This document shows, piece after piece, positions 12,926 through 59,585 of a stretch of 64,000 nucleotides of DNA. The translations under genes were made by a program, and so were the position numbers. The notes below the pieces were generated by a model. The model was not told the origin of the DNA, ran no database searches, and saw nothing but the letters and a program-made list of their open reading frames with translations. The stretch's first letter is position 1. Every line of letters starts with the position of its first letter. The DNA comes from Amyelois transitella (lineage: Eukaryota > Arthropoda > Insecta > Lepidoptera > Pyralidae): NCBI RefSeq assembly GCF_032362555.1, contig NC_083511.1, positions 5,456,001 through 5,520,000 of the forward strand, given 5' to 3'.

Positions 12926-13007
12926 AATTCGCTAAATAAAATGAAATACAGATAGAAAGTAACAATATATTAATGATTTCTAATCAAAATGTTATTTTCG
13001 TTCACAG

Positions 13008-31572: not shown

Positions 31573-32261
31573 TTAGTAAGGACGATTATTAATATATGGC
31601 TGTGGGCGCCTCATGGGTGGGGGCATTCTATTGGGAGGAGTTATAGATATATCTAGGTAAAACCCAATCTGGAATTTAACCTGGGACAAGGTCTTATTGT
31701 CATCACCACCACGTTGTCCTGAACATGTTACCCCTATTTCTCTCATTCTATAAGTAGGTGATCGCAAATCTGGATAAACAATTGCAAAATCAAAGTAAGT
31801 TCCTTTACGTCGGGTCTCAGGATTTACTTCTTTGACAAGTCCAGTAAGTTCACGGAGTGATGCATCCATCCATGTGTAAATTTGAAGTTCATTTTGTGGC
31901 ACATTACCTCTCGCATAATCAGCAAGCGAGTTATGTCGACCCGTCGAGCAGAATACTCGTAACAGCAGAGGACATGTCTGAAAACAGCACAGATTGCAAT
32001 CTTTAAAAATATCATACTTTGCTTCGAATCATTGAATTATGTTTGCATTGATATGTAAGTATATTATGTTTTCGAAAGATTGATTTCACTTTTTTCATTC
32101 TTTATCCTTTGCAATAAATATCCTTCAACAACAAATGGGTAAATAGGTACCTATGATGGACAGCAGAACGTTATAAAGAATCGATATCATACCTTTTCCC
32201 TGTCTACAGGTTTTTCTATTGGTTTTACTTCTTCAACGACCATAGATTCTAATCCTGCCAT
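31573..32261 (-). CDS. SAP18: SAP18 (Sin3A-associated protein, 18 kDa; fly Bin1)
   Basis: SAP18 is a nuclear protein that links the Sin3-HDAC corepressor and is also a subunit of the ASAP/PSAP exon-junction complexes. Two exons, 32193-32261 and 31573-31977, join in phase 0 across a 215-base intron to give 157 residues, against 153 in human. Exon 1 encodes MAGLESMVVEEVKPIEKPVD then REK. Exon 2 opens TCPLLLRVF and continues GNVPQNELQIYTWMDASLRE, LTGLVKEVNPE, FDFAIVYPDL, SQVKFQIGFYLDISITPPNR and ends NNRPY. These are the hallmark blocks of the ubiquitin-like fold. The start ATG at 32261 is the only one fitting the conserved N-terminus. It faces the calcipressin gene head to head, with 1.75 kb between the starts. 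Confidence 0.95.
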
Positions 32262-34015: not shown

Positions 34016-34687
34016 ATGGCTCATAAGGAGGATGAACAATTTCAGGAAGACGATGTTTATATCAACCCAGAAGATGGCATGCCCAATGTTCACCCTAACA
34101 TTGCTAATTTAGAACAAGAAAGTGATGACCCCGACGAAGTGGACGACTTTGATGACTTACCTAAATCAGTAATCGTTACAAATATCCATAGCGACGTTTT
34201 CGGTGACGAGAAGCTAAAGAAGGACATGGAAGACCTCTTTCGTACGTTCTCAGATAACACTACCTTTCAATGGCTACGTAGTTTCAGACGCTTGAGAGTG
34301 AATTATGACAGTCCGTTGGCGGCGGCTAACGCTAGAGTTCAGCTTCACCAATATCAATTCCATAACTCTTGTATAAATTGTTATTTCACACAGCCAGTAA
34401 CACCAGTGTCATTTAAAAACTTGCGACCGCCAGCGCCAGTGAAACAGTTTCTTATTTCTCCACCATCAAGCCCTCCAGTTGGATGGGAGCCAAGGGAAGA
34501 AGGTGAACCACTAGTGAACCATGACCTTTTGGCGGCATTAGCAAATTTGTCACCAGGTGAGAGCCATGAACTCCATGCGCCAACTCCTACCCAGCCAGCC
34601 ATAATTGTTCATACTGCCTTGCCTGCAGAAAATGGCCCCTCAACACATGGTCACACTATTGTCCATACACGCTGTCCGGATTATTGA
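34016..34687 (+). CDS. sra: Calcipressin / RCAN (Drosophila sarah, nebula), calcineurin regulator
   Basis: A cytosolic regulator that binds and modulates the Ca2+/calmodulin phosphatase calcineurin. The 223-residue frame is complete in one exon. Order: acidic N-terminus 1-50; RRM-like domain about 50-127 (SVIVTNIHSDVF, ending SCINCYFTQP); the family signature FLISPPSSPPVGW at 145-157 with the two SP sites phosphorylated in vertebrate RCANs; NHDLLAALANLSPGESHELH 168-187; the PxIxIT-like docking motif PAIIVH at 194-199; and the C-terminal HTIVHTRCPDY, matching the vertebrate IIQTRRPEY end. ATG 34016 is preceded by 'acattgcata' and fits the expected length. An intronless coding region is notable; a 5' UTR intron is possible. 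Intact frame and motifs argue against a pseudogene. Confidence 0.93.
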   Translation: MAHKEDEQFQEDDVYINPEDGMPNVHPNIANLEQESDDPDEVDDFDDLPKSVIVTNIHSDVFGDEKLKKDMEDLFRTFSDNTTFQWLRSFRRLRVNYDSPLAAANARVQLHQYQFHNSCINCYFTQPVTPVSFKNLRPPAPVKQFLISPPSSPPVGWEPREEGEPLVNHDLLAALANLSPGESHELHAPTPTQPAIIVHTALPAENGPSTHGHTIVHTRCPDY

Positions 34688-35917: not shown

Positions 35918-37224
35918 GTTACTTTTTGTTTTTATTTTCCAAAGGTTATTTAAGAATTAAAAAAATAAAATAAAACAATAAAGAAGTATTGTCAAGTAAC
36001 TATTTATAGCTAAAATATTCATTTGAAAAAACATTAAAAGTATACTGAACCAGCGATTGTGAATCAGGGCCTTTGCTTATAAGTATTTATCATAATTATT
36101 TTATAACTATGTTATTGTATTAATATTAATTTTTGTTATACCAATACCAAAAATGGAACTGCAAGAGGAATTAAATTATTATAATGCCCATTTAGATTTT
36201 GTGATATTATAAACTTAATTAAATTTGTCGCCTAGAATTGAATTGTTGAAAATGTGTAAATAATAAATTATTTTTGCAACAAGCAAATAGTAGAATAGAA
36301 TGATATTGTTTTTGAGATTAGAATGCAAAAGAGGAATAGTTTCTCCTTGGTCTAGTCTGCTCATATTTCGGCCACAAATGGGCATGTAAAAATATGTAGA
36401 TAATGCTATTCTGTATTTTAAGGACCAAATAATTTATTTCACGGCTGTTATGTAATTAAGCTATTATTAGACCTTAGTTCCTATTTTTGAAGATCTTTAT
36501 ATCTTGTCTGAGAGTGGCCAATCTATGGGAGCCGATAATATTTGTACCACCAGTAACATGATGCTCAAAAGGGTGGTAGATGAAATACCAATGCAGCATA
36601 TTCTTGTCCATTTTTATTTCACAACATAATCTCTATTATATTTATTTTTAGTGTAATTTTACCTACTAACATTATTGTACCTGACTGCAAAATTATTATA
36701 GCAAAAACTCTACTGCAGTGATAGTGGATTTATTTGTTTGGAATCCTGCCTTTATGCCTGTACACACTCATCGAAAAGTATCTTTCACATCATAGCATAT
36801 GTCACTAACCCTGATTACATTTGATCAGATTTTTTTGCTGAGAAAATGAAATTGATGTCAGTTCAGTTTTATGATTGAACTAACTCATCTAGGGAGGTTT
36901 TTGAACTATTTATAAATTAGAAGCTTTATAATTTGCAGTCGGGTTTCGATCTTAATAATTAAAATGTATTGTATGTACTACGGCGTACCTATGCAATTGA
37001 TTTCACTAATAGGCTTCAAAACCCCCGAAATATCCTATGTAGATTGTTATATGGAAATGTTTTGGTGATTACATATTGATTGACTAATAGTAATAAGAGC
37101 TGGTCCCATCTGGCTTTTACCGAGATTGCAGTAGGATTGCGTGGGCGTAGGTTACTTACACGTGCTTGTTATGAAAGGTTCGTTAAATCTTCATAATCTA
37201 AATAAAAGCGAAGTAAATGAATAT

Positions 37225-37280
37225 AGTCTCTGCCTACCCCCCGGGAAAGAGCCGTTATTTAATGTTTGTATGTAAATGAA
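37225..37280 (+). repeat. Short dispersed repeat R7
   Basis: The words 'agtctctgcctacccc' and 'gggaaagagccg', followed by a 'gtttgtatgtaa' tail, recur at 41168-41222 and 42632-42690. Confidence 0.5.
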
Positions 37281-38282
37281 TATCTACAGGAATATACACG
37301 GGATTTAGAAAACAATTTGCCACTGCGCGAATATCTTGTTATTAGTGCATGGCAATGGCAAGATGTAACGCGAGGGTAGCCAAATACCTTTTTTTGCTGT
37401 GTGGTGTTTTTAGTAGTCGGTTTAAGGCTTATAAAGAAAGTACCTATAAAAACATAATAACTTATTACATCGTAATTGGAACACTACGAACCTGATTTTT
37501 TATGCGGATGAATCTTTGTCACCTTTACATGTTTATCGAAGAACTATTTGTGCATACCTACATGAATGTATCTTCTATCGATGTTTTTAATCTCACTGTG
37601 ATTATGATTTTAATTGTTTGATGTAAATATAAATTATATTGAGTTTTAACCTGTCTTTAAATTTTTTGTGATAAGATTGCTTAGGTACCTACCATGTTCA
37701 GTCAGAAATTAATATTTATTTATCAGCTTGCACCCTAGAAATCGGAATATCTTATTCATTAACATCTTATTTAGCAGTGACTACACTGTGTCAGATAGCT
37801 TGGAAGTCGCTTTCTAATTGCTTGACTTATCCATTCGGTCGTGTTCAAAAGGGACAAACGCCAGAGGGCAATTCATACATAATATGATCTTATTTATGTT
37901 TTTGCTTATTGTGGTAATTTTTTGCACAATAACAAAATAATATTGTGGAGTAGTAACGCCTTTATTAGGTAGAGGTAGGTATAGGCAGTAAATGGTAGTT
38001 AATTACTCCCAAAATTATAAAAACTTAAATACCTACCGACACTCTTACCAATTTCTCTACTTAGAGAGGTAGGTAAACTTCAATTCTGTAAAGACAAGTC
38101 GGCATTCCTGTTTTGCTTGTTGGTTGCGTGGTTCCAAAAGTTACGAAAGTTTGCTAATTTTGTCGAATTACGCATTCAATATCGATGCGATACGATCCAC
38201 TAGGTAGTTTGTAGAGCATGAAGCGCATCTTAACTCTGTGATTTCTAGTGTCCATACATAAAGACAATTCCGGTAGAGAATT

Positions 38283-38340
38283 ATGAGGCATTAAGTCCAT
38301 CCTTTGTACATTTTTTTTTTTTGAACAATAAAGTTTTTAA
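38283..38340 (+). repeat. LINE 3'-tail-like fragment
   Basis: The 'gaggcattaagtccatcctt' and 'tgtacatt' words, a T-run and 'gaacaataaag' match the same terminal segment as 21083-21152 and 54115-54200. Confidence 0.6.
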
Positions 38341-39180
38341 TGAATAATGTGTTTACTAAGATGGGTTCTAACAATGGTCATTTTCTTCTTCAGCATTTAT
38401 TTGTGTTCCAAATGTGTTTTTATTTTATTGATATTAAGGGACGGGATTCAATGATGCGATACGATAAAATAACAATCTCAAATTTATTATAATACCTAGT
38501 TATGTACATGTTTAAAGTAATAGTCAAAATAAGTTCTTTTATTTCAATTAAATAGTAACATTCCAAGCTTCTTACTAAAAAAATCAGCTATTATCATGTA
38601 GGTACCTATTGTTTTTATTTTTCATTGAAAGTCATCATCTTACAGTCATGCATGAATGCGGGGAACGGCCCACCAGAATTTCGAAAAACAGGCCAACCTC
38701 CTGATAGTTTTGAGAATTGTGCCTTCCCTGCTTCTTGGACATTCTCACACGACGTCATTAATTATGTAACTTCTTCTAATTTTCACGAAACATTACGATA
38801 GTTCGTGATATATAAAACGTAAAAAGTAGGTAGGTACTGATTATATGGATATCTAAATAGGTATCAATACATATGTATGAATATGATACCTACATATATG
38901 AGTTGTTACAACAGTTGAAATGGTTGATGAATAGAAATAGTTTTTCTTCAACATCTGAAATATTTGGATAGCGTGAAGTTAAATTATAGTTTCAAAGATA
39001 CTTTACGTTCAAAATTCCTAAGGCACTTATAATATCATCAAACTTACTGTGCAAATACATATCCCGATAACAAATAGGAACATTCGTATGTACAAATCGT
39101 TGGTCTGTTTATAAAGAATATATAAATATTAAATACCTTAATACCTACAATATCGATAGATACTAAATTACATAATATAT

Positions 39181-39186
39181 TTTAAT
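39181..39186 (-). terminator. Candidate polyadenylation signal of SLC22 B
   Basis: Minus-strand ATTAAA about 265 bases after the B stop. This is the commonest variant signal. No AATAAA lies closer. Confidence 0.25.
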
Positions 39187-39450
39187 ATATCACAATCAAA
39201 TTGTCATAGTATCTTTTCGTTTAACATCGCACATAATAGCGAAAACCTACAAATGGACGGTTATAGATCCGTACGTACCAATTAAATTATCTTTTTTTTA
39301 CTCTACGCTTGTGCTAAGATTATTAGAATGGTTTCCTTGCGTCTGTTGGTAGAAAATGGTTACTAAAATTATCCATAGGTACGCTAAGCTTTGCCCTTAT
39401 ATACATACATAAGTCCTACCCAAGGAAAATAACTACCTACTTATACAAAA

Positions 39451-40960
39451 TCATACCTTTTTACTCATATCTTCCAACGGAACCATTGCTTCAGTATTTT
39501 TATCATCTTCTGCATATGTTTTATTTCGTTTTTTACCCAGGCAACTTGCAAAACAAGTGTCTCCTTTGCCAAAAGTTTCACCGTCTGCAAGGCTCTGTGG
39601 CATTGGCTGATTCATTGTTTCAGGTAACCAAAGACATAGGAATCCAGAAATTAGAGCGATCACTCCAAAAATTACTGCTGGGATCTTAGGATTGAATGAA
39701 TCAAGTAGAGTTATCAGTGGCGTTAAAGCACCAGACAGCCTAGCGCACATAGACCCAAGACCTAATGCAGAATTACGAACCACTGTTGGAAAAAGTTCGG
39801 CTGAATAATTGAAAACGATCGCAAATGATCCCGCAATAAATAATTTTCCTATTATAACCACTGCAGTGGAAACAGTACTTCCTACTGTGAAAAAGGTAAC
39901 TGTTATACATGAGAGTCCTCCAACTAACATCATAGAACTAATCAATGGCCGTCGGCCCCAAATATCTAAGAAATAGATGACTGCGGCGTAACTAGGCAGT
40001 TCCACAAATCCGAGAATAGCTGTTATAAGATATGGATTACCCTCTAGTTTACCGGTGCTCAAAGTTAAACCATAATATGCAATTGAATTAGCAAACCAAC
40101 ACAAGCACACATTTAGAGTTTTGCTTCTTAGGTAAGGCGTCTTAAATAAATCTAGAGTTGTGCCCGATGGAGGTTCGTCGGATCCTTTAGAAGCTTCTAC
40201 TTTTCCTCTGGATACAAGATCTGCTCTATCTAATGTGTCTTCAGACTTGTTACATTTTAAAGCCTTTTCGACGATAGTCACGGATTCTTTCACTCTTCCT
40301 TGAGCCCACAACCAACGAGGTGACTCGTCCATTATCCATATGTGTGGGATGAGAAGAAGACTATGTAATCCATAAATAATTTGCAAGACTTTTCTATCGT
40401 CTATAAGTGCCCCCCATCCAGCTACTATCATTATACCTACAGCAAAAGTTGCCTGGAAGGCTACCCCACACGCAGTTCGTTTACTCGGTCCAACAATTTC
40501 CATTGTCAGTACAAATCCAGTAATATATGATCCGGCGGATCCAAAGACTCCATACAAAAATCGTATCACTAAGAATGAATAGTATTCAGGCATAAACGCT
40601 ACTAAAACTCCGAAGACTAATTGCAATACTCCAGACCAGCAAAATATTGTTTTTCTGCCATATTTATCCGCCATGCTTCCCAAGACTACTGCCCCGGTGA
40701 AGACTCCCATCATGTAAATTGTCTGAGCCAACGCTCCCATCCATCTTTTATCACAAACTAGGTCCCACTCAATAGCACGCGAGGATGACCTATATGTGGT
40801 GTCGTATACAAATCTTGAGCAGGCCACTGTTAGATTGTTTTCGTACATGTAACAGCTCTGTAGTTCGATGCCGTCTTCTGCTTTTGGTATGGCATTAAGA
40901 ATTTCTGAAGAGTTCCAAGGTGCAGCTGTCACGTTCGTATCCACTCCGTCAATCCAACAT
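39451..40960 (-). CDS. SLC22-type transporter B, large terminal exon
   Basis: Encodes 502 residues of an organic cation transporter-like MFS protein from the first conserved extracellular Cys to the stop: CWIDGVDTNVT, WNSSEILNAIP, SSRAIEWDLVCDKRWMG before TM2, GSMADKYGRK, GFVLTMEIVGPSKRT, IMDESPRWLWAQGR, the TM7-TM12 region with SAELFPTVVRNSALG, LPETMNQPMPQSL, and a cytosolic tail ending EAMVPLEDMSKKV. TM1 is missing. The exon opens with one base completing a codon after acceptor taattacag, so an upstream exon ending in phase 2 is required. None resembling TM1 is visible between here and C. The exons at 46968-47079 and 56983-57025 would join in frame (AG|A TGT, Arg-Cys), giving 554 residues. 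It is close to C throughout and shares its tail. Confidence 0.9.
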
Positions 40961-41167
40961 CTGTAATTAATAAATTGTTCTACCTTAAAAAATGTACCTG
41001 AATTGTAAAAAATCTCTATGTATCTACTTAAAAAGGGGGCTTTGGTCGATTATTAGAAGTAGATTAGATAATATATCCAATAAAGAATAACCTTACTCAA
41101 AAAAGTGCTGATTTGCAGCTTGTGTAGGTAGGTAGGTAGTAGCTACCTACTTCGTAAACAAGAGGAG

Positions 41168-41222
41168 AGATGTAGTCTCTGCCTACCCCTTCGGGAAAGT
41201 GGTATGATTATGTATGTATAGT
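41168..41222 (+). repeat. Short dispersed repeat R7
   Basis: 'gtagtctctgcctaccccttcg' region with 'ggaaagtgg' and a 'tatgtatgta' tail, as at 37225-37280. Confidence 0.5.
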
Positions 41223-41584
41223 AATGTGGTTTACATTGTATACCTAGTTAATTTCTTTAATCTCAGGATTCTTTTGTGGAATGAAGGAGTGACGAACGCC
41301 TGTTTTATTAGTGTGACTAGAAATATAATACCTTTTGTTTTAACTTCATGTTATTTTTGTGTTAAAATAAAAGCTAATCATATAACATACTCGTAGATAA
41401 AGCATTTAATATAAAAGTAACAAAAAATAATAACTTAGCTGTTATACTCGTAATGGTAGAAAAAGAGCTAGCTATTATTTCAGTACCTTCGGTCTGTCTT
41501 AATCTTTTATGCATTATTTTTTGTAGAATTCTCGGCTGATGCTTCAAGGTCCATTAGGTCCATCCTCAATACATACATACTTTT

Positions 41585-41705
41585 ACCTCATCACACATTT
41601 ATTCCTTACGGGGTAGACTGAGCCGACAGTATTGAGAGTACTGAACGACCACGTTCATCTGTATTGAGATTCTGATAGTAACAGGTTGTTAGTAACCCTA
41701 CCCTT
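41585..41705 (+). repeat. R1 repeat fragment
   Basis: 'tccttacggggtagactgag', 'ccgacagtattgagagtact', 'gaacgaccacgttcatctg' and 'atagtaacaggttgttagta' follow R1 order. Confidence 0.65.
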
Positions 41706-42631
41706 GAATCCAAACTTTATTAGGTAAGTACTTGACTTTCACAATCTGCGTGGAAGGAGAATCAGCTGGCCACACTACGTTTTCTCTTTGCTACCAGTCT
41801 CGCTTAAAAAATGACGCTAGATTTAATACAGCATGAACCTAAATGATTCTTTAGATAGGACTGTGACGATTTTGTAAAATTTCTTGGATCTGTTGACTAA
41901 GTACCTAAGTATATGATACTTGCTATCCAGTTTTAAATACAGTTTATTGTTTGTGGACTCTTTAGATGCCTTGAAGTCTTTGATAATCTGAAATGGTTTT
42001 CTAACCTTCATTTTATATGTAAGTCTTGTGCGATGTTTTCTATTTCATCATGCATGCTAATAAAAATAAAACAACATATGAATGCTTTAGATATTTTTAT
42101 TTGAAAACAAATTCCTTTATTAATTATCAAAATACAAAACTTAATAAGGTTCTTATTTCTAAATAAGTACTTAAAGAAAAACTTGTTTATAAACAACGTC
42201 AATTGACATCTTCATAACTATGGTGTTTATTTAAATGTACTCCGAAGAATAGAAAAATATAAGTGCGTTCATTAGTTTAAGTTTGCATCATGTAGTATAA
42301 AATCAATTTTAAGTACGTATATACCTATGTTTTCACAGAATACTTAATTGCGTATAAGTCTGTATTGTTTATCGTGAATCCAATTATAATTTAATAAATA
42401 TAATCAGTCTCACTGTTACTATGAACCCTTTATTTGGAACTCGGCTAGGTGTCCGATACACAAAAGTAAATTTGACTGATATAACTTACGCATTGTACTT
42501 ACCTACTTATAAGGTACAAATACAGTATATAAACGTCATTTAGGTATGTTTATTCCATTTAAAATGGGTATTTTGGCAGTTTAATGAAATTATTATTTCT
42601 CATATACAGGGATCATGGAAAGTGGAAAGTT

Positions 42632-42690
42632 GCAGTCGATGTAGACTCTGCCTGCCTCCACGGGAAAGAGGCGTGGTTTTTGTATGTAAA
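42632..42690 (+). repeat. Short dispersed repeat R7
   Basis: 'gtagactctgcctgcctcca', 'cgggaaagaggcgtgg' and 'tttttgtatgtaa', third copy of the family. Confidence 0.5.
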
Positions 42691-43089
42691 TAATATTATT
42701 CCTAAACGTGACTAGAACTTTAGCACAGTTAAATCCCTGTCTTCTTATCCTATACACAAAATAACAACTCATCTTAAAAATGCAAAGTAATTTTTTATTT
42801 AAAAAAATACCTGTTTTGTTTTTTATCTATTCTTATTCCTTATAGGTATTTACCTATTATTATAGTTTTATAATTATTACCATAAAACAGACCACTGGGT
42901 TGCAAGTAAATATCTACATATACTCGTATTAATCTTATATGGCAGTTCAATCTGTTTATACATACATACATTTAGGCTTAGATTTTATTACTAAGCATAA
43001 TAAGAACATACTTGAAGCGTATTTGTATTTTTCTTTAATGCCTAAAGTTTTTGGACATCTTTTAATAAATACACCACATTAATAAAATG

Positions 43090-43172
43090 CTGAAAACAGC
43101 TGAAAGTGGCCTTTCAGTCTTTTGATGACTGTTGGCTTTGTCTACCTCGCAGGGGATGTAGACGTGATTATA
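43090..43172 (-). repeat. R1 repeat fragment, minus strand
   Basis: Reverse copy of the R1 5' end: 'cagctgaaagtggcctttca', 'gactgttggctttgtctacc', 'gcaggggatgtagacgtgat', ending 'tatatg'. Confidence 0.65.
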
Positions 43173-43556
43173 TGTTAATAAAATGGTAATTTTATACTTT
43201 TTTACGTTCTAAGTTGTTAAAAGGTACATACTTAGGTATACATACATATATGTAATAATGAGTCGCGTAGAAAATTAGACTAAGCTTTATATAAAACAGG
43301 AGTTATGCACTTAAGTAAATAAGGTACTATACCTAATATTACCACAGCTTGTGCTACATGTCTCTTAGTATCTATGTTATCAAAGTAAAATATATGTATA
43401 TCAACATATAATAATATAGAATATATCAACCAATATACGTTATTTTCTCAGTAGTCGCTTTGAATCGTTAGCTGTCTTATAGCTAGTAAAACTGAAAGAT
43501 ATTAATAATTTAAATTAAAGTCTGTGAAAAACCGAGTTCATGTTTCAATGTGTTAT

Positions 43557-43562
43557 TTTATT
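43557..43562 (-). terminator. Polyadenylation signal of SLC22 C
   Basis: Minus-strand AATAAA about 130 bases past the C stop codon. If B and C share 5' exons, use of this site would decide which last exon is retained. Confidence 0.5.
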
Positions 43563-43691
43563 AGAACTAACCTCAATTAAATGCGCAGAATGCGTGGAAT
43601 CAAATAAACAATATTTGGTTAAATGTGCGAAGAGAATGACATAATGCTAGCACAATATGAAAATAATATTTTCTTAACTCATAAATAGCTG

Positions 43692-46600
43692 TCATGGTTT
43701 TTTCTCCATAATTTCTAGCGGTACCATTGTCTCCGGTAAATTAATCGAATCTTCACTCATTCGCCGACCTGTACAATTTGTGAAACATGTATCACCAAGC
43801 CCAAATCTTTCACCATCTTCAAGAGATTGTGGCAGATTCCGGCCATTTGTTTCCGGAAGGAAGAAAGTGGAAAAACCGGAAAATAGAGCTAAAAATCCGA
43901 ATATAATAGTTGGAATTTTTGGATTCAGTGAGTCAAGCAAACTGATGAGGGGAGTAAGAGCTCCTGATATGCTGGCGCTCATGCTTCCAAGACCTACTCC
44001 CGAACTGCGGACTACAGTAGGGAACAATTCAGCAGAATATTTGTAGATAATAGAATATGAACCAGATATGAAGAGCTTTCCAATCATAACTACTCCAGTT
44101 ACTGACGAGTGTCCGTGAGGCAGGGCTACCACTACAATACACGCTAGTCCACCTAACAACATCATCGTACTTATAAGAGCTCTATGACCAACTCTATCTA
44201 ACAGATACATAATTATAACGTAACTCGGAAGTTCTACCACTCCCATCAAAAACATAATGAAATAAGGATTACCATTAAGTTTACCTGTATTAAGAGAGAG
44301 ACCAAAATAAACGACAGAATTAGCAAACCAACAACCACAGATTATCAAAGTTTTCTTTAACATATTCGGTGTCTTGAACAAATCTGATGTACCAGCTGAG
44401 TGTTCATCGGTATACTTGGCACATGTGGCCTTGCAGTGAGACACCAAAGCAGGGGTGTCTATAATCTCGTGGGATCCGTTAATCTTCAAAGCCTTTTCTA
44501 TTATAGCTACAGATTCACGAGCTCGGCCTTGAGCCCACAGCCACCTCGGGGATTCGTCCATTATAAACCAATGAGGAAGAAGTATCGCTGCGTGTAAAGC
44601 ATACAGAATTTGTAAATAGAATCTGTTATCGATAAGATATCCCCAAGCGGCTAATAACATTATCCCAATGGCGTACATTATCTGAAATATTACTCCACAA
44701 ATAGTGCGTTTGCTCGGACCAACTATTTCCATTGCAAGCACATATCCAGCAATATAAGAACCGGATCCAAATATTCCGTACAAAAATCTGAAGACAACTA
44801 ACGTGTAATATTCATTGACAAATGCGACCGACACGCCGAGCAATAATTGCAGGAGTCCCGCCCAAACAAATGCAGCTTTTCTGCCAAATTTATCAGAAAG
44901 TCTTCCAATGACTAGAGAACCGACCACTACACCAAACATGTACGCCGTTTGTATAGCGGCGCCCATCCAATTTCTACTACAAACAAAATCCCATTCAATA
45001 CCGCGTGATGATGTAAAGTAACGTGTGTCATAAACCCAAGAACTACATTCTTCGATTGTTTTATTTTGTCCATAAATTTTGCATTCGTTGATTTTCCCAT
45101 GTTCGTTGAGAGGTATGGCATTTAGTATAAGCGAGGAATTCCATGGCTCGGTATAATTGGCAGTGTCCACATTAGGTACGGCACACCTGTAATTCAAAAG
45201 TGCCTGTTAAGTTTATTGAACTAAGTATTTTGACTATTCTAAATACCTACGTGGTTTTAAATAGTTGCGCTAATGGATCAGAAACAAAATATGCTTTGTG
45301 CTTGTTGGAAGCATAAGTTTCACAAGCGTGCAGTTGTCACTGATTTTTAATCTGCCATATTAAAAATTTGTAAGACGTAAGAGAGAGATAAAAACATGCA
45401 AATATCTATGGTTACCTATTATGAGTGTTAGACACAAGCACTTTGATTAATTTATTATAGATAGATATCCAATAGAAAGACATCTGGATTTCGTGGGAAT
45501 ATCCCAGAATTGTAAATGATGGTACGAACCACATCTTTCTGCAGGATATTTATAGTTACAACTTGTCAATATTTGACTAAAGTCTGTACTTTGTTAGAGT
45601 AAATATTGCTAAGTACAATTACGAATATACTTATGTTAGAAATTTTTATCAAATTTCATCCTGTGATTAGTAGATAGAGAAAACATATTTATATTAGTGA
45701 GATAATTAGCTACAACAAACTAAAAAAAATGGGGTTAGTAAATGAAAGCAGTGCACTTAAAAAAATAAGTTATCCAAAGTTGTACTTACGTTCCACGTGA
45801 TCTTCTGATACTTTATATTGCTCATGAAGATATGCACCCTTGAACCCGAACAAGCAAAATTGTACACTCTCTATAAATTGCATTAAAATATAACAGCTAC
45901 CGACCCCTTCGCACACCATTTCAAATATTTTAAAGTAAAAAAAGAAAATATTAAAGATAGATAATAGTAATAGCCGCAACGTGGTAGGTATATATTTTTA
46001 CTGTTTTTAAGTAAATCGGGTATATATAAAATATAATTAAAATCAATAGGCAATCAATGATTAATCCAATTCCAACCCAAGGAGAATTTATAAGAATAAT
46101 AAATGATAAATCATCATAATACCCAATCCATGCACGCATTATGTCCTTAAAACTAATTAAATATTGGTATACTTAGTTATCGTTTTCATTAAATATACGG
46201 TTATCAGTTTTATATTTGCAAGAAATAATAAAATAACATTATAAATTTCTGCCTTATTATTCCTTGTACTTAGCCAATCCCTCCACCTAAAAGTTTAGCA
46301 AAAATATGCGTAATCGAACCTAAATTAATTTGTTTTCACTCTCCTTTTTAAATCTTATCATGCTTATAATACAAAAGGAATGGTAATATTTATGTCGAAG
46401 AAAATATTTATTATTAGTGATTTCATGACAAAAAGCAATTTAATCATATTACCGTCTGGAATTTTTTTTATTGTGTCGTGTTGTGATTTATTGCTTTACA
46501 TAAATCGAAATAAAAACACTGTGGTGTTTAAATTCATAAGTATGTGTGTATTTTAAAGTGAACAATGTTTATCTTTGTAACTAGGTATATTTCATGTCTT

Positions 46601-49600
46601 GAAATTATAATTAGTTACACCTTTATAAAAGCTAAAATTTCATTTGAACAAAATAATGTATTTTCATTCTGTAAGGCATTTAAAAAAAGGTGAACAAAAA
46701 CCACGTGACTTTTTCTAAGCCCGTAGCGTTGTATCTACTCAAAGATTGTTTTTATTGGTGGATTGACCTCTGTCAACAATATCTCTATATTGTTAACTTT
46801 TTTGACCCAGACATGCCATGCTGAAAGAATTTACGTATAAGTGTATACACAGTAGGTACTTATTATTTTTAAGGCTACAAATCTCTTCATTAGTATGTTG
46901 AAAAATCTCTATAATTCCTTTTTTTAAACATGCATGTCTTGCTAAGAAATATTTTGCTGCTGCATACCTATGTTCCGGTACCGCGGCGACTGTGACAAGT
47001 GACAACATGTGCATGCCAGCGGTTAAGGCAGAGAGGATGTGGAGGATGAACTGGAAACATTGGTACCGACCGAAGTCTCCTGAAATCGATATGAGTTAAC
47101 AATTAGTCCATTATTAATAAATATATGGAGATGCAGAAATAGCGCAAGTAACATAAAAATAATTTTCTGAGGGAAGAAGACAGAATTTGAATAGGAGAGC
47201 TGTGAAAAACAATATCAAAAAATATAATGTATTCCACAGAATTTTAAAGGAGCGTCGTAGAATACTGCTTTGGCTAATGATATCGCTGGAATCTTAAGAT
47301 TAAGAGGAACATAATAATATTCATCAAAAAACGGTAAAACACTCGCGGTGGACCCAAAAAATTGTCTCCTTAATATTGACAATAAAAAACACGAATTCTC
47401 AGAATATTTCTGAGAAAAATGTAATCCATAGTCTAAAAATTAAGTGACTTCAACCGTATTTGTGGCAGTCGTGAACAGAGAATGCAAATGTCGTCACTAA
47501 AGCGTGAAAATAATTATGTTGAATACATAATGAAGTCTTTATTGTATTGTTTGCTTTGAACTGATAGTCCGGTAATGACCTATAAAACCTTTTTCTATGC
47601 AACCCACAATTAGTATAAGCTTTACTTAAAATAGTGGATCAAAAAAAGAATATACTTATTACTCGTACTTTTTCGTGGTGTCAGTCACGTGTTGGGGTGT
47701 ACCTTTTGACCATAAAACTGTTTTGGGTTAGTCAGGTTTTTACGAAAAGCGACCGAAGATTGAGGAACCTAACCGATTTTGGATCATGATAAAAGCTGCA
47801 CTAGATGAATGTGCCTTATCTCTTAGTCTCCTTTCATTACATCCTTGGGAGAGAGAAGTGTTCCTTTCGTAAAGGGCCGAAATCCACACGGTATCTTCAT
47901 AACAGCTTGTTAAGATATAACGAAAAACATAACAGCAAGCCTCATAGAAGGCTTGATAAACAACTTCTCTGGACGTCATGCATGATGTACGACTTCTGTT
48001 GATACAGATGTAACCCCGTTATAATTATACCGCAATTGATAACTCCAACAGACGATAAGTGTTCCATTTAACACAGCTCTGAGTTATTATTCATTAATCG
48101 ATTGACTTTTATTTTAAAAGAACAATTTAAGTAATTATTCTTTATATTGTTTTTGATCCCTTATCCCTGTGTACTGCACACATCACCATATCGTTACTGA
48201 TATTTAAAAGAGTAAAGTTTCCGACCGACCCGATCATAATTCTTTCACTGTTACAGAGGTTCATTACGTGCGAGCATTAAAGACTGTGTTTGTAGGCTAA
48301 GGCTGTGTCTGGCCAATAGTTTAAATATATAAAATAAAATGACTGATTGACTGACACAATATATACTCATAACACAAACCGCTGGGAAATGACATGTGAA
48401 ATTTGGCAACTGAACTCCATAGTTTTAAAGACGTATAAAGAATTTTTCCAAAATTCACGAGGCAACGCAAATTAGCGAATACTTCGATTTTCTCTGCCAT
48501 AGCCGCGAGCGTATTCCATTCTAAGTCGCATATTAAGTAGATTATTTTCCACGATTCACTAAACTCTACTAAACTTGGCAATTTTTTACTAGGCGGATGA
48601 CGAAGGTAGACATTATCGTTTACATCAATCATCTACTTTACACAACTAGGTAACAGTCGGCTATTTATGTTTCTGTACGTAATACCTTGACTGGAAATAG
48701 TATGCATTTTAATTGCGACCGTTAATACCGATTACCGATTAGCATACCCGCGGAAATGGCGCCCTCGATATGAATTGAGATGATTATCTCTCTCTTTAAT
48801 AGATTTGTGAACTACATAATACTTACTTATGCAAAATTAACATATAGGATAATGAATTAATTAAAAATATAAGGAAACTGTCGCAGAGATCATAAAGTAT
48901 TTATATGGTTTTCTAAATTAAAATACCTCATACATGGAAGGTCAACTTTTTTATCGAATCTTGAATGATACCTATCTTAAATTCTGAAATCATAAATTTT
49001 TAAGCGTTATCTATTTTTTAATAAAGAATGTAAAGGAAATTGTTATACTGTTTTAGCTTAACCTTTATACTAATAAGTCCGTAGTTAAATTTGATAATAC
49101 GGGTGAGAATTCCAAAATATTTGCGTTATTTTCGAGGAGACGTGTGTAACTGGCACCGGCCCAACAGCGCGACCTAAATATCCTATCCATCATTTAATAA
49201 GTTCTGTTAATTTATTCAAGTAGAATGTACAACTGTAATATACCTTTAAACAAATAGTAGGAAAATACTTAATAAAATAAAGACGCATGCCAAATGCCAT
49301 ACATTAGAAGTGTTTAATCCTAAAATACTTATAATGTACTGTTACGGTTCTGGGTAGGAATGTTGTGTTTGTGAAAAGTGGGCCATATAGAAAAATTATT
49401 TACTATAATACGTCTACTTTATGCCGTATATAGTATGTGTGCCGTGTGGTTCTCGGCACTTTAGAATAGGACTACTCCGTATCTTTCCTAGAATGTTGGC
49501 GTAGATGGATAAAAGCAACTAAGGAAATGGCTAAACTATGTAAGGTAACTATGAATATCTACTAAACGAATGTCGTATACTTTTTTTAGTTTCCATTGTA

Positions 49601-52600
49601 AATCAGACAGAAAACTTCAGTCTAGAATTAACTAACTATGTAAGTATTTATGGTCAGATTCAATGAAATTAGTAAACTATTCACATGCATACATACCTTA
49701 AAATTTCATACGAGTATTTTTGTGGGCGTATAACGTCATTTACATAAATATAAATGACAATTCCACGCTAATCACAACTCAGCATATTGTTCTGTTCAAT
49801 ACAAAGAACAATATCTGTTCAATGAACAAATTATCTTACGTAAGTACATCAGTTAACATTGGTCTGTAAATATTGTAGTGGAACTGGAAATATAATCTAG
49901 TAATTCAAAAAATTACTAACGCAGATTATAAAGCTTTACGTACCTAGCTAGGTTTAAAAAAACATCAAAAAGATGACCACACGCATTTTACTATACTTAT
50001 AGACATTTATTGTGTGCATCAGAAGATGACGACCATATTTTGATCGTGTTTAGCGACCACAAAACAAATAAGTTCTGTGGTGACGACAGAGCATAGATTA
50101 CCAAAGAATATATTTGCTCTAAGACTAAACTAATATCACGACCGTGAGATAAAAGATTATGAATTAGGCACGAATCGAAAATGTTATAAAAGTTCGTATG
50201 GTAACTAAGTCTGAATCTTCTTCCTCCTGGCTATAGTCCTATTATATCCTCACTACTCTGGCGAGGAGCCCGGGTTACGCCTATGACTATGGAACCTACC
50301 TGGATTACGTGACTCAGAAATCTAGCCTCTGCAACCTTCCCAGAGGAACCTAACCGGTAATGGATCATGGTTACACATTCAGATATCCAATTGCTTAATG
50401 TGCAGATTTGCTCACGATGTTTTTCTTAGGCGTAAGAGCATCGCTTAGTATTCTAACTTATGTAGGTACATAACTTCGAAAATAGTCTTACATAGCTGAG
50501 GTGAGATTTGAATCTTGATAATTAAGCCTAAATATGTCGGATGCATATAGGTATGTATAACTTATCAGCACATTTATTTAACAATTTTTATCCCTTCCTG
50601 TGCATGTCGTAGAAGGCTCCTAAAAGGCAAAGCCGTAACAACATTGCATCAAGCAGGCACTCGACTATAAAAAAATTGACAAACGTTCAATGTTATGTTA
50701 TACATGTGCTTTTAGTTTGTTACCAACATATTTAGTCTTTATCCGGAATATACCAAGCAGTCTCTTATATAACAGTTGAAAGAAATTCAGAAGAAAAGAA
50801 CATGACAAAATATTATGGATTCCTAATCGCTTTTTCTTTATAGGTTCCATTAATGATGCGTAGCTATGGCTTGAACTTGCGTATTTGGCTATATTTGTAT
50901 ATCTTATCTGACCCAGATATTATTATGATGATACCATGGTATCAAAAGGTGACATCGCAAACATATCAGGCCTTGAATTATTAATGTAAATACTGTTATA
51001 ACATAGCAACCATAAAAGCAATTTTTGCTATCTAATAACTCTCTACTCTTGCCCTGTGGCTATAGTCCTGATTGCATGTTCACCACTCTGGAGAAGAGCC
51101 CGGGGTAAGCCCTTGACCATGGATCCTGGATGAGTCAGGTTTTTACAAGAAGCGACTCCCATCTGACCTTCGCCACCTTAACAGGTTAACCCGTATTGGA
51201 TCATATGATTGCACACCCAGCTGTCTGAATGTGCAGGTTTCCTCACGATGTTTCCCTCACTGAAAGAAGTGATATCTTATAACTGTTCTCATATAATTAT
51301 TTTCGCGATGTACATACCTAATTTGTTAACTTAATGTTTTTGCCAGGTGTCATGATTTTGAATATGTGTGGCTTTTGATAGCATTTCAATAATTTATCTA
51401 TCTATCTAATTCGATCTCTAGGTATACCTTACATCGTCCTTTCGTTATCCTTATAAGATAATACTGTCTATGGTTATATTGGAAAGTAAATAAAACAAAT
51501 ATTACAACTGAGTACCTACATTGTATTGCTGCACCACACGCATTTATATTTCTTGTATGTGTACCTTTTTTGTATGTGTTATACTAGTTAGTTAAGAGCA
51601 TAATCTGTTATTTCCTTTCTTGTTTTTTTTTTGTGCACTTTCCTATTCGAATCAAAAATTGCAGCTTAACAATCATAATCAAAGAGCATAAACGTCTTTC
51701 TGTTATCATACAAATAAATCTTAATATGATAACAACATAATACCTATGTCGGCTATCGCATAATACTTAGTTAGCTGACGTCAATAGACACACCTCCTAG
51801 TTTTATGAAGTTGTTTGCACTAGTAAGAGTTACTACTCAAAGCATAGATATAGATTTGGCTAGATACCGTTCTACTAAAAACTGAGCGTGTCAAGTTTGT
51901 CTAAGTCAACAGAGCGGAATACGGAGTAAACTCATTGTGGTTGGTTTGTATGACTCCATTTTCATATTAAAAACCATAGAAGGGTCAAATTTTTCTGTAA
52001 GAAACTATACGTATAGTTCGGTTAGACTGTCACAATTTAATAAATCTACTGGTCACTCTTTTGCTACGCGAATTTAGTAGTTCTTGCAGAGTCTAGCAAA
52101 CCTATGTCTGTATGTTTGCGCATGAAAATGTAACGCATTGTTGGTTCTCATGTTTAGTGACAGGTAATTATTCCTAGTCACGAAGAATGATCAGCTGACT
52201 TCATTTTCTCTAAATATATTTTCAAACATTCTGTTGTCACTGAAGGACTGTGTTGTGATTTGCGGCTGGAACTAATTATAGGTTACAACAAATGTCAGAC
52301 ATTTTAACAAGTTGATGTAATGTGGTACTAATATTTAAAGGTGTACCGTAAAACGGGGTGAATGGGAACAAATTCGAAAAAGATTTTGCGTGTGGCTTTT
52401 TCAGATGCAATACGTAAAGCAAGAAATTATGAATTTTTCATAAATTTCACCATGCCTCGACTAGAACCATGGTCCACAACTATGGTTTGACATTATCATA
52501 GATATTCCTATCTGTGATTTAATATGATGGATTTCGTGATAGATAAGTAATTAACCATGACACCATTTAGTTATTTAATTATTAATAAATGTGCAAATTG

Positions 52601-55600
52601 ATAAAATTCTTTGAAAAGATGATTCTAATAATAAAAAAAGCCTGGTAAGGTTGAGTTAAACTCGCGCACGAGGAGTTCCGTACAATTTTATTTGCAAAGA
52701 AAATATCCTATATCTCATAAACTATTTCATCGATTTGTTCTAACTAATTTTTGTTAGACATAATCAAAATTGTTTTAGCAGTCTTCTTATCATTTACAAA
52801 AACCTATCCAACGATAGCCCACAAGGCTATATTCTCATAAAAATATTGTTCCTGGAAGGAGTGCTACTTTTAATAATTTTATTTTTTAAAATCAACTGCA
52901 TAATATTTCTTAAAACAAATACCGTCCTACTTTTAAATGTCAACCTGCACCCTATGTGCCCCAATCTCCTACAAGGTAGCGCAGGTCAAATGGGAATCGT
53001 TTCGAATAGAAACTTGACCTACGCAATCGGGAGTAACCATGGACTAAGTGCAAGGGCACCGAACACATGTGACAATTTATACAAATCGCTTCAGAAATTC
53101 AGAAAAAACAGACCAACAAAATACAAAAAAAATTAATGTATATTTTAAGTAGTTGTAATATTGATATAGGTATCAGAAGGTAGAAATGTTCTTTACCATT
53201 ATCATTTATAACAACACTTGACGTGAAAGTAGTGGCATTCCAAATAAGGCAAGGTCAGTAGCAAAGCTGATAAGACGTTACCCTTGGAGCAATAAACTGA
53301 TTTAAAATTGAATCTCAACATATAACGGTATTCGAGGTCGTTGATCTAAAATTTTAAAAGCTTGATTCTTCTAACTTCGAACTAACTTCTGCCCTGGGTT
53401 TTGTTACTGTAGGAATTTGTAAAAATCCTTCCTAATCTATTATAAAGTTTTTTTTTTTTAAAGTGACAAATTAAAAAATAAATAAAAAATATCTAATCAT
53501 TCCGTAATAATGTTATTCGAAAATACTATAGGTAATGTATGTATGCAATGTGCCAAATTTTATGTACCTATGATAATGAGATAACGACCTGACTACGATT
53601 ATATGTATTGCCTAATCTAAAAAGTTGTAGCAAATCAACATTACTATATCAAATAACAATAAAAATATAAAATCTCCATGATAAGTCTGTTATTAATCAA
53701 AACTTAACAGATAACACGGTTTATCTTGCAACATACATGTAAGGTGAATGTCTCAATCAAGGAAGAAGTAGTTACATTGAAATTGAATTTTAGCTTATTT
53801 TTTCATATTTAAATGAAATACGTAAAATTTATATCCCTATAACAAGTTAATAAAAAATCGTTGGTAGGGAAAATTTTACTTACTTAAAAAAAAAGGATTG
53901 CCAAAAGTATAGTTGGTTCAAAAGTTGCAGTTTAGTACTTAAAAAATGTAATAGTGTTGACAACCATAAACTCATAGCGAGGGTTATCAAAAAGGCATTT
54001 CGCTTCATAATCGCTGCACCTATTTATTTATAGATATTGTTAATTTACTATTGTTTTATGTATGTTTATTATTATTTTGTGTAATTTAAATATATTTTTT
54101 TGACCCCACCTAATTTCTCTGTCGAATTCAATGGTTGACTGGTAGATAATGCTTCCAGCATTGAGTCCACCTATTGTTAAAGTTTAAATAAATAAATAAA
54201 ATAAACTAATTAAAAGTTGAATATACTCAGATAACATTTGTTAATTGTAATTATATGTAAACTCAAAAGATATGCATGCTAACGATGATTTAATTTTAAT
54301 TTATGCAATGCATGCTTAATCTTGTAATTGCCACTTGGCAATTAGGTGCCTTCTGATAAAATTGTTAACGTATGGAAAAAAATTGTAACTTATCAATACT
54401 GACGAAATATTTGAGGTACCTACTAATAATACTTAATCTTATTCTATTACATTATTTAAATAAGTATCTATAACATTATACTTATAACAATTTCCCAAAT
54501 GGAAATCAAAATGAAACATTGAATTAAATTGTTCCTAAACTCGGATAAAAGTCAAGGACTTGTACAAAGGCTACGCATGACAATATTGTATGGTACCTAC
54601 TGACTTATACGCCTAGCCAAAATTAATGTGAGTTTAGAGGGGAAAATTCCATCATCATCATCAGCCTTTCAACAACAATCTATTCTTGTTTAAATAATTA
54701 AAACAAGCGGTTAATACATCATATATTATATACATCTATACTATTATTTAAACCGTAAAATATTACGCAGAGATACCTAGTGTTATAAATATCACACTAT
54801 ATATAATATATATAGTGTGATAAAGAGTCTGTTACCAAGAAGTAATTTGAAATATGCTACATGGGCGTGATAAAAACACAAGCGTCTAGCTTATTTATGA
54901 AATAGATATTGACTTTAGCGACATTATGTTTGCTATCTATGGTATCGATAAAAATATCAATTGGCAAAAAGAACACCAGATTTTTCAAATAAGTCTGATA
55001 GTCAATGACATAACAATTACTAAAGCCGGTATTATTACAAAAACAAACGTGATCAAGGAGAATCTATACTTGTTCATGTATTATCTGTTTGGAAATGTTA
55101 TTGTAAATTTCCGAACTACTTATCTCATTATCTATGAGAAAAGATGTGACACGCACACTTTTCGAAGGCACAGGGTGGTACAGAGTACTTCATAAATTAC
55201 ATCACAGACACACTCCGAGTAGATAAACTCCAATGGATTTTGGTAAGTGGATGCTTTAAATTATTATGTTACAGAATTTTTTGTAGAGTTTACCAGGGCC
55301 AGGCCAGAAAAGTTGACCTTGAACAGTTTCCTAGGTATTTTTAACATGTAGTCTTACCAGTGATTTTTACGTAGATACATTAAGAATATTTAAACATTTT
55401 TACATACTTACGCCATGTTGGGAATTCGATCGCATGTCGTGATTATTCAAAGTTCTTTCAGTTTTAGTGGAAATTACCATTCTGTGCTGACTATACATAT
55501 TGAGAAGCCCCTTCCCAAAATGTATAGTTATATTTCCGCGACACATCTGATGACGTTAAGGCTGCTTAAAAAACAGGATAATATTGTAAGAACCTATAAA

Positions 55601-57025
55601 AATAAACAGACCTGTACCATAAAGAGTTGCAGTGCTGTCTTGAATAATAATAATCATATATACCAAGAGGTTTTTTCAATTTATGTTTGGAAGTAGGTGG
55701 ATTTACCTGCTATCTATTGACATTACCTACTTATGTTTATCATAGATCAGTTGTAAGATTAAAACAATTTGTTGCTAAGTAGGTACAACAATATGAGGTG
55801 AAATTTCATTTCGTTGTAATTATTTGTTGTTGTCTTAATTATTATCCAAGTAAGTCGTAAATTTAAGCATACAATTAGTAGTAAGAAGTTGAGTTATTTA
55901 CGGTCCTACTGATGATTATTACACTGAGAATATCACTTCCAAGCGTGCATAACGTGCAGACACATTAATTAAACAATGCATTTAGCCCATGTCAGAATGT
56001 TCGCATTTAAACAGATGAAGGAATAAAACGATAGTTTGTCGACCTCTTTTGCGCAGTGGTAATATGTGTTTGCCTCTGAGGCGAAAGGTACTCGGTTCGA
56101 TCCTTTGTTGGGCGTGTTTTAATTTTCAAGTGGATCTTAGCTATCTTATTTTTATTTTATTATGTAATGTATGTTTAAAATTATAAAAAGATAGATAGAC
56201 TCTTTATTGCACCATAAGTAAAAGAAAAATAGAAAAAAAAACACAGGTAATGAAGTACCTACAAAGGCGGACATATCGCTAAAGTACTTAGTTTAGTCAA
56301 TATTTATCAACAAAAACCCATGATAATCCTAACAACAACTAGTTATTCCAAACTTAATTAATAAAATTAGCCCTCTATCTTATCCGCAACTTAACCGAAG
56401 TCTACCCTTCTTCGTGACATGACGCAACATTCAGCTCTATCTGACCACATCGTAATTGTATCCAAACAGAAAGGTCATACTGATATCGATACTGTTAAGT
56501 AACAGTTTCATGACACTTAGTGGCAAGTTAAAAAACTCATTATGAAATTACAATGATTAAACTTTTATGCATAATTTTTTATAATATGAGTTAAATACCT
56601 ACTCGTAATATGCCTACAAAATTGACAATTTGTATTTTAAACTATCTCTACCTACCTATTTCAAGTACATATTTTAAATATTACAAATACTTTACAAAAC
56701 TATATGAGACCAAATGAAAAACTTTGACACAGCATCTTTCGAATCTTTTACTAGAAAGTGCGTGACCGCAAAAAACAGTAAGGCAATGATTATGTGAAGG
56801 TAATGCAACGTGGAGAATTATTATCATTGTATTACCAACTCAAGACGACAGACCGGTTGCAAGAACCAGACTTATAAACGGTATCGATGCATTATCTACG
56901 GGTTTTGACACAGCTGCAGAAATTCTTGTAAATCATTAAAGCACATGCGGTTAAGTTCCATATGTTCCAATCGGCCACTTACCGAGTTTCCCCATCATCT
57001 CTTCCAAAGCGACATCCTTGTCCAT
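43692..57025 (-). CDS. SLC22-type organic cation transporter C, three coding exons
   Basis: A plasma-membrane MFS carrier of the SLC22 group; substrate unknown. Exons 56983-57025, 46968-47079 and 43692-45186 join in phase 1 and phase 2 to give 549 residues, the family's normal length. Exon 1: MDKDVALEEMMGKL. Exon 2: GDFGRYQCFQ then TM1 (about 22-44) and VPEH. Exon 3 from Cys53: an extracellular loop with NYT and NSS glycosylation sites, EWDFVC, TM2, GRLSDKFGRK 145-155, EIVGPSKRT, MDESPRWLW about 261-269, the TM7-12 region with SAELFPTVVRSSG, PETNGRNLPQSL, and a tail with CFTNC ending MVPLEIMEKKP. The ATG at 57025 sits in aaccaaccATGG. A 5' UTR intron acceptor (cattacag) lies about 40 bases upstream of it. 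Intron 1 is 9.9 kb. Confidence 0.9.
45187..46967 (-). other. Intron 2 of SLC22 C
   Basis: The donor on the minus strand is AG|gtatgc, weaker than consensus; the acceptor is gaattacag. AT-rich, with no second TM1 exon and no strong repeats seen. Confidence 0.6.
46968..47079 (-). CDS. Exon 2 of SLC22 C (TM1 exon), possibly shared with B
   Basis: The 112-base exon encodes 36 complete codons, DFGRYQCFQFILHILSALTA through VPEH, with split Gly and Arg codons at its ends. The GDFGRYQ motif and the following hydrophobic stretch are the conserved N-terminal cytosolic motif and TM1 of insect organic cation transporters. It is flanked by acceptor tcgatttcag and donor gtatgc. It ends AG (phase 2), and both downstream large exons begin with one base followed by TGT (Cys), so either join restores an Arg-Cys. 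Confidence 0.85.
47690..47895 (+). repeat. Mosaic repeat: R2 head joined to R1 tail
   Basis: R2 words ('gtaccttttgaccataaaac', 'gttagtcaggtttttacgaa', 'ttggatcatgataaaagctg') run through 'cactagatgaatgtgcc' into the R1 3' third ('cttagtctcctttcattac', 'tccttgggagagagaag', 'gccgaaatccacacgg'), like 9845-10045. Confidence 0.6.
50218..50480 (+). repeat. Dispersed repeat family R2, long copy
   Basis: Full order: 'tggctatagtcctattatat', 'cctcactactctggcgagga', 'gcccgggttacgcctatgac', 'ctctgcaaccttcccagagg', 'aacctaaccggtaatggatc', 'atggttacacattcagatat', 'gcagatttgctcacgatgtt', 'taagagcatcgcttag'. This is one of the two best copies. Confidence 0.75.
51040..51290 (+). repeat. Dispersed repeat family R2, long copy
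   Basis: Same word order as 50218-50480, adding the segment missing there ('gagtcaggtttttacaagaa', 'gcgactcccatctgaccttc') and ending 'gtgcaggtttcctcacgatg', 'tttccctcactgaa'. The two long copies lie about 560 bases apart in direct orientation. Confidence 0.75.
54115..54200 (+). repeat. LINE 3'-tail-like fragment
   Basis: 'tggttgactggtagataatg', 'cttccagcattgagtccacc', 'tattgttaaagtttaaataa' and an 'aataaataaa' end. Same terminal segment as 21083-21152 and 38283-38340. Confidence 0.6.
54790..54822. repeat. Inverted repeat, 15-bp arms
   Basis: Arms 54790-54804 (tatcacactatatat) and 54808-54822 are exact complements with a 3-base loop. Partly simple AT sequence. Confidence 0.8.
56040..56110 (+). 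repeat. tRNA-like SINE head
   Basis: A-box-like 'gcgcagtggtaatatg' and a good B box 'ggttcgatcc' (about 56094-56103) with tRNA-like spacing, then 'tttgttgggcgtg'. It resembles the tRNA-derived head of a moth SINE. The cloverleaf stems do not pair well enough to call a functional tRNA. Confidence 0.5.
56185..56230 (-). repeat. LINE 3'-tail fragment, minus strand
   Basis: The reverse complement reads 'cttatggtgcaataaagagt' followed by 'ctatctatc', the usual end of lepidopteran non-LTR insertions. Confidence 0.5.
56983..57025 (-). CDS. Exon 1 of SLC22 C, start codon
   Basis: ATG GAC AAG GAT GTC GCT TTG GAA GAG ATG, ATG GGG AAA CTC G, then donor gtaagt. It encodes MDKDVALEEMMGKL plus the first base of Gly15. 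This short acidic cytosolic N-terminus directly before GDFGRYQ is typical of insect organic cation transporters. The sequence around the ATG (accATGG) is a favourable initiation context. Confidence 0.85.
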
Positions 57026-58566: not shown

Positions 58567-59585
58567 GTTAATAATAATTGCTAAAGGAGATATGGATATC
58601 AGTTGACGCTACTTTATACAAACTAATTTATTATAAATAATATTCAAAGCACGTAGCTATTGGCGGGAAGGCAGATAATGACACTTTATATTTCATATGT
58701 TTCCGCTCTCAAACAAACCCAAACCCTTGAACTCTACGTAGGTCAGTAAAAATTTATACTGAATAGGTACACTGCTTAAACCCGACACGATAATTTGAAT
58801 TTAATATGATTAGACCAAATATTTAAACGCATTATATAGGTACTTAGACCTCTCTCGTTGGTCCTATAACCTAGCCAATTTTTTCTTTTCTATTACCTAT
58901 TAATTATTGTCACCACAGCGAAAAAGAACAAAAGTTTAACAATAGGTAATTAGCAGACTTGTTTGTTTATGTGGCTCATATGAGCTCGACGGCATTTGAC
59001 CTTACAAACTTACACTTTATATATTTTTTGTGGTTACATAAACTATACCAAAGTATAGATTTCAACTGGCTACTAACCTCCATGGTTTGAAGTAAATCTT
59101 ATTATTATTATTTCGTGTTGGTAAGCACTAGGTAGCCTTCGTCTATTCACCCATACAACCGTTAGACAAATTATAAATGTTCTCCATTCCTGTAATATTC
59201 AAATTAAATTAAATTATTTATTAATTAAAAGTTTTATTCTAGATAACTTAGTACAATAAGGTGACTTAATTAATGCCCTAGGTGATTTTCTACCTATCTA
59301 GTAGTAGGTAAATATATAAGTTTAACAATAAAGTCTACAACGCTACTAGAAAAAGGAGACATTTTGCATTCGAGAAATATCTCAACCTATCAATTTTATT
59401 GGCTATTTCTTATCTATAATTCTACTAACTTCTTTGGTAATCTCTTCTTTTCTCGCATTACATTTTTGCATAGCTAGTTCAAATACTCAATCACTCATTT
59501 AGTGTAAAACCATTAATTTCTAGCCTAAATCTACGCAGCCACGATCAAATGTCATACGTATCAATACGGACCATTGTATTGTGCC

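Follow-up and report, generated by a model that had tools for sequence, protein, structure and literature searches.

PGRP-LC is an immune receptor of Drosophila. Tandemly duplicated, mutually exclusive terminal exons have been described for its 3′ regions and for those of Drosophila pip (PMC9013439, in part). A comparable arrangement is predicted here for a locus of the pyralid moth Amyelois transitella, contained in a window (the whole stretch of DNA that was analysed) of 64,000 nucleotides (nt) (NCBI RefSeq assembly GCF_032362555.1, contig NC_083511.1, positions 5,456,001 to 5,520,000 of the forward strand). In this locus two large last exons, named B and C, each encode most of an SLC22-type transporter and would share one start exon and one exon for the first transmembrane helix (TM1; the following helices are numbered in the same way). 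That this SLC22 locus adds to the known class of tandem alternative last exons is well supported by the features of its sequence. The likeness to pip lies in homologous terminal exons that are tandem duplicates and are chosen one at a time, whereas pip is a sulfotransferase gene with eight clusters and is treated among duplications of untranslated regions (PMC9013439, in part); the moth locus has two exons, each coding for a nearly whole transporter of twelve transmembrane helices (12-TM). PGRP-LC is similar in the mutually exclusive 3′ regions of one pre-mRNA and differs in its protein family and in the competing RNA structures that are said to act there (PMC9013439, in part), a crude pairing test at the moth locus having been negative.

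In the open-licence literature (titles and abstract openings), neither SLC22 exon sharing nor alternative last exons in insect transporters were found among the matches listed. Drosophila Gr39a, with its large exons at the 5′ side and its shared exons at the 3′ side, is the mirror image of the moth locus. This gustatory receptor gene combines large alternatively spliced exons (four) with a few small shared exons (three), and the divergence of its exons is broadly likened to gene duplication (PMC2204066, in part). Within the SLC22 family, a Drosophila cluster of six genes is alike in family and in tandem copies, whereas its members are listed as separate genes and the words 'exon', 'splice' and 'isoform' are absent from the main text of the article that describes it (PMC7139749, in part). 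The Ditrysia-specific SLC22 orthogroups are alike in representing a lepidopteran expansion of SLC22; that study differs in being conducted at the protein level, with no exon sharing in the portion of its text considered here (PMC11837612, in part).

The elements of the moth locus are the following:

57025-56983, minus strand: start exon, 43 nt, MDKDVALEEMMGKL plus the first base of a Gly codon, placed by its phase and by the alignment that the joined protein gave with SLC22 N-termini
47080-56982, minus strand: putative intron 1, 9.9 kb, inside which a second TM1-like exon was not found
47079-46968, minus strand: TM1 exon, 112 nt, phase 1 in and phase 2 out, DFGRYQCFQFILHILSALTAGMHMLSLVTVAAVPEH plus split Gly and Arg codons
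45186-43692, minus strand: last exon C, TM2-TM12 and C-terminal tail, ending with a stop
40961-46967, minus strand: putative intron of the B transcript, 6.0 kb, with the whole C exon and no TM1-like exon found inside
40960-39451, minus strand: last exon B, TM2-TM12 and C-terminal tail, ending with a stop

The start exon reads ATG...CTCG/gtaagt (14 codons and 1 nt, with gtaagt as donor; slashes mark exon borders). The TM1 exon extends from atcgatttcag/GAGACTTC to GAACATAG/gtatgc, its 3′ end being CATAG/gtatgc, and holds 2 nt, 36 codons and 2 nt. The 5′ border is gaattacag/GTGTGC in exon C and taattacag/ATGTTGG in exon B, and in each the acceptor AATTACAG is followed by one base and then by TGT. 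The two terminal exons are homologous and lie in tandem, on the same strand and in the same phase, with a stop in each. An earlier note on this DNA had located B, C, the TM1 exon and the start exon, and had described the similar acceptors, the single base and the TGT; all four sets of coordinates were confirmed on the minus strand, and the acceptors read as described. Splicing in silico gave a frame that is open from the ATG to the stop through either B (554 amino acids) or C (549 amino acids). The junction codon is AG+G=AGG with C and AG+A=AGA with B, both Arg and then followed by Cys, so that ...VPEHRC is reached by either route, which bears out the claim that the TM1 exon joins either last exon in frame with Arg-Cys. 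B by itself had been said to lack a start codon and TM1. This also held, since Met is absent from the open stretch 41049-40960, the first Met in the exon is residue 38 and a TM1 exon of its own was not found in the searches described below. Without a Met before residue 38 B requires an upstream exon, as otherwise part of a loop would be lost besides TM1.

By their similarities B and C are intact 1.5-kb exons of SLC22-type transporters, with organic-ion transport as a predicted function. PF00083 matched exon B at 117.2 bits and exon C at 127.5 bits, and the closest solved relatives of both are SLC22 proteins, with SLC22A3 at the top (exon C against SLC22A3, 7zh0: 237.2 bits). OCTN2 aligned with residues 8-71 of the joined C protein (21.3 bits). 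Against the OCT-type model TIGR00898, which represents a cation transport protein family, residues 15-507 of the joined B protein covered positions 1-505 of 506 (358.6 bits) and the joined C protein also covered positions 1-505 of 506 (380.0 bits), neither of them reaching the curated cut-off of 550.75 bits. When the 5′ exons were left out, the alignment began at position 97 for exon B (349.3 bits) and at position 92 for exon C (369.8 bits), the 5′ exons adding 9.3 and 10.2 bits, respectively. The sequence match of both joined proteins to SLC22/OCT proteins is thus full-length. A simple hydropathy scan, in which the helices are not cleanly countable, placed in the joined proteins a hydrophobic stretch at about residues 22-49, Cys at 53, 87/88, 99 and 121, and then more hydrophobic stretches.

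The identity between B and C is 60% (296/495), with values of 54-63% in each of five regions, and 168, 110 and 302 of the 495 codons differ at the first, second and third position, respectively. Synonymous change is saturated (proportion of synonymous differences, pS, 0.76, with no finite synonymous distance, dS), and the nonsynonymous distance (dN) is 0.35. The chance of an open frame of 502 codons at the local base composition is about 1e-17, which together with the 60% identity argues that neither exon is a product of chance. Genome-wide, B and C are mutual best matches (60%), and the next matches by score are the single-exon genes L003 and L004, 28-29% identical over about 400 residues; short genomic pieces match B or C more closely, the highest identity being 53% over about 38 residues.

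The single TM1 exon that the earlier note had seen by eye held up in a profile search, a splice-aware scan and a search of the genome. The TM1 profile was made from four solved SLC22 proteins and the TM1 exon of the locus, and was applied with filters off to six-frame stretches of at least 15 residues. The TM1 exon (47079-46968) scored 70.8 bits, or 20.6 bits when it was left out of the profile. The next scores in the window were 14.7 bits, from an SLC22-like gene at 13.1 kb on the plus strand, and 8.9 bits, from unrelated hydrophobic background on the plus strand. Between 39 and 64 kb the minus-strand runners-up reached 8.0 bits (62252-62169) and 6.8 bits (the stretch of the start exon), and with the profile built without the TM1 exon the score that followed the exon's 20.6 bits was 6.4 bits. 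The 20 kb further upstream of the window yielded at most 8.8 bits, and the 10 kb past its low end (L014) one unrelated hydrophobic stretch of 10.6 bits (11.0 bits with the other profile). A splice-aware scan of the window for AG...GT stretches in the right phase and with 32-47 codons, which covered 320 minus-strand candidates, scored the TM1 exon at 187, an alternative start of the same exon at 181 and the next candidate at 16. When the TM1 exon was compared by tblastn with the four stretches that lie between the exons and above them, 32 matches fell on the same strand; the best 15 of these had at most 16 residues and at most 17.3 bits, all of them within intron 1. The 38-residue TM1 peptide, searched against the whole genome up to an E value of 10, gave two matches, one being the TM1 exon (E 8.8e-20). 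The other, at C7:2747918 (41%, E 1.9), has a Met of its own and is near SLC22-like matches at 2.75 Mb, and appears to be the first exon of a different gene. Because that search scores best candidates only, and divergent TM1 exons detected by the profile are absent from its listing, it cannot exclude distant TM1 exons. By these sequence comparisons the TM1 exon upstream of C is the only close match in the window, the 30 kb flank and the genome. A single upstream coding set was found for the TM1 exon within the sensitivity of the searches; other start exons were not searched for, 43 nt being too short. That a second TM1 exon, belonging to B, was lost through an assembly error is extremely improbable, given 327 Mb assembled in 33 contigs, the absence of N from both the window and the 30 kb flank, and a genome without a stray close TM1 copy elsewhere.

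The explanation favoured here, with a probability of about 0.8, is one minus-strand gene with two alternative last exons and shared start and TM1 exons, which would have arisen by tandem duplication of the terminal exon. The proposal that one set of 5′ exons serves two last exons is supported by the single related TM1 exon, by the fitting phase and residue and by the similar conservation of B and C; its other part, the use of junction 46968^40960, keeps the standing of a prediction. We infer both that this junction is used for B and that the B/C pair derives from exon duplication. An old tandem duplication would have copied the last exon with its acceptor and without the TM1 exon. The start and TM1 exons would then be spliced either to the near exon C or to the far exon B. 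Joining of the TM1 donor to the C acceptor, with cleavage after C, would produce transporter C, and when the C acceptor or 3′ end is left unused the TM1 donor would join B, 6.0 kb away. The choice would yield two 12-TM SLC22-type transporters with identical N-terminus and first helix, and the selection may depend on competition between splicing and 3′-end formation at C.

Several observations weigh against this explanation. The detection of TM1 depends strongly on divergence: mock TM1 peptides reached 15 bits in 495/500 cases at 60% identity, in 250/500 at 50% and in 19/500 at 40% (110/500 above 9 bits), and under about 50% identity TM1 regions may go undetected by the profile; a TM1 exon of B's own at 40% identity or less would mostly escape it. 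Two divergent SLC22-like genes also had low scores, 6.2 bits (window, 59.7 kb) and 6.4 bits (L003). B could accordingly be a gene apart from C, under its own promoter and with a TM1 so strongly diverged, or so divided among small exons, that it escaped the searches, and there is room for such an exon in 40961-43691, 45187-46967 and 47080-56982. The loss of sensitivity below 50% identity and the two low scores within the same genome are what this alternative can draw on. It is nevertheless unlikely. The identity of 54-63% throughout B and C leads one to expect a matching TM1 near 60%, a level detected in 495/500 mocks, so that an exon of B's own should have been detectable unless it was diverging much faster; apart from the TM1 exon, no minus-strand stretch at 39-64 kb exceeded 8.0 bits, and the tblastn matches in intron 1 stayed, for the best 15 of 32, at or below 16 residues and 17.3 bits.

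The TM1 regions of seven divergent SLC22-like genes scored at least 14.0 bits with the profile including the exon, a line that was taken from the results afterwards and not preset: 14.7 bits for the gene at 13.1 kb of the window, 14.0-23.8 bits for five genes of an array on C7, the chromosome to which the window also belongs, and 19.6 bits for L004. A failure of the method as the reason for the missing second TM1 exon was rejected on the basis of these scores. L008, a 3.7-kb piece that may be without its TM1 exon, scored 2.8 bits. The array is this:

C7:5396000-5419000 (L009-L011), both strands: tandem SLC22-like array of at least five multi-exon genes, recognised by exon matches and own TM1-like stretches

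Its five genes (C7:5.396-5.418 Mb), which serve as a natural control, are 28-37% identical to B exon by exon and have a TM1-like stretch each, and a sixth, partial TM1 stretch lies at 5412652 (DDVIETAIGKFGKYQ, 9.5 bits). Gene copies in the array thus seem, from their exon matches, to keep their own 5′ exons, whereas none was found for B.

Other points against shared 5′ exons concern the splice sites. The first exons of other SLC22-like genes seem to end in AG/GT too (locus L016), which makes the phase match by itself unspecific. An SLC22/MFS fold requires TM1. B might be expressed from a private 5′ exon that supplies a Met and a short N-terminus, giving an 11-helix protein, or by read-through of C, and a short private start exon would not be recognisable by homology; the B acceptor retains, however, the exact phase and the Cys codon that fit the TM1 donor, and the need for TM1 disfavours a protein of 11 helices, which leaves this origin of B quite improbable. 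The acceptors of B and C are weak, with 10/20 pyrimidines each versus 13/20 for the TM1 exon. Being weak and alike, they would suit a regulated choice. Base pairing of the RNA on the donor side of TM1 with that on either acceptor side, assessed over 400 nt on each side, was in no excess over shuffles, 19/60 and 7/60 of which paired as strongly, and no guiding pairing is evident.

The weak acceptor would also fit a B that is a relic exon, spliced to nothing any more, and so would the branch of B, which is somewhat longer than that of C in a four-protein tree (0.37 vs 0.26). Against this stand the 502 codons that are still open in B despite saturated synonymous change, the retained motifs ESPRWL and GSMADKYGRK, and the comparison with the outgroups L003 and L004 over 472 columns, where 77 residues common to the outgroups persist in B as well as in C, a further 18 having changed in B only and 16 in C only. 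With such residues lost about as rarely as in C, B looks used, and a relic is very improbable.

An old, stable two-in-one gene is likely at this locus, in which one TM1 would serve two bodies that are 60% identical and saturated for synonymous change, so that TM1 could not evolve independently in the two proteins. In the SLC22-type fold TM1 contributes to the substrate path. If the shared 5′ exons are real, the locus would allow a natural test of the divergence open to two transporters tied to one helix, and of the way in which a cell selects one of two last exons, each coding for a nearly whole transporter. Automated annotation might record B as a truncated SLC22 gene or a pseudogene, or count B and C as two genes, and as a consequence of such miscalls counts of moth transporters and designs for RNA interference could be wrong.

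For 3′-end formation, which would take part in a choice of exon by competition at C, two candidate signals were considered:

43557-43562, minus strand: candidate poly(A) signal of C, AATAAA, 130 nt past the C stop
39181-39186, minus strand: candidate poly(A) signal of B, ATTAAA, 265 nt past the B stop, weak

AATAAA occurs twice in the 792 nt examined, about one occurrence being expected by chance from base composition. The hexamers sit at the expected places, yet they are no more than chance would give. The C poly(A) site is a candidate for the switch that the earlier note had proposed. As to the extent of the duplication, a test on intron DNA gave short repeat-like and chance-level matches. 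Repeat-like stretches, 78-79% identical over 51-64 nt, are common to the regions downstream of B and C (36500-43691, minus strand) and are perhaps a dispersed element.

The remaining genes recognised in the window are the following:

12977-16320, plus strand: SLC22-like gene of several exons, with a TM1-like exon of its own near 13.1 kb (14.7 bits) and a PF00083 match of 54.8 bits for 15141-15794
30042-31118, plus strand: insect cuticle protein (PF00379, 25.0 bits, at its cut-off)
31573-32028, minus strand: SAP18 (140.1 bits)
34007-34687, plus strand: calcipressin/RCAN (123.6 bits)
59640-64000, plus strand: divergent gene that runs off the window, possibly SLC22-like, with GSIGTWQWLVVF at 59.7 kb and, by eye, ESPQWLLYSRK at 63.3 kb

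No Pfam match was obtained for 59474-60061. Pattern matches to the locus in two collections other than insect genomes, 8 stretches among viral contigs and 54 among genome contigs, yielded no confirmed orthologous DNA. The genes for the cuticle protein, SAP18 and calcipressin/RCAN are useful anchors for the orthologous locus.

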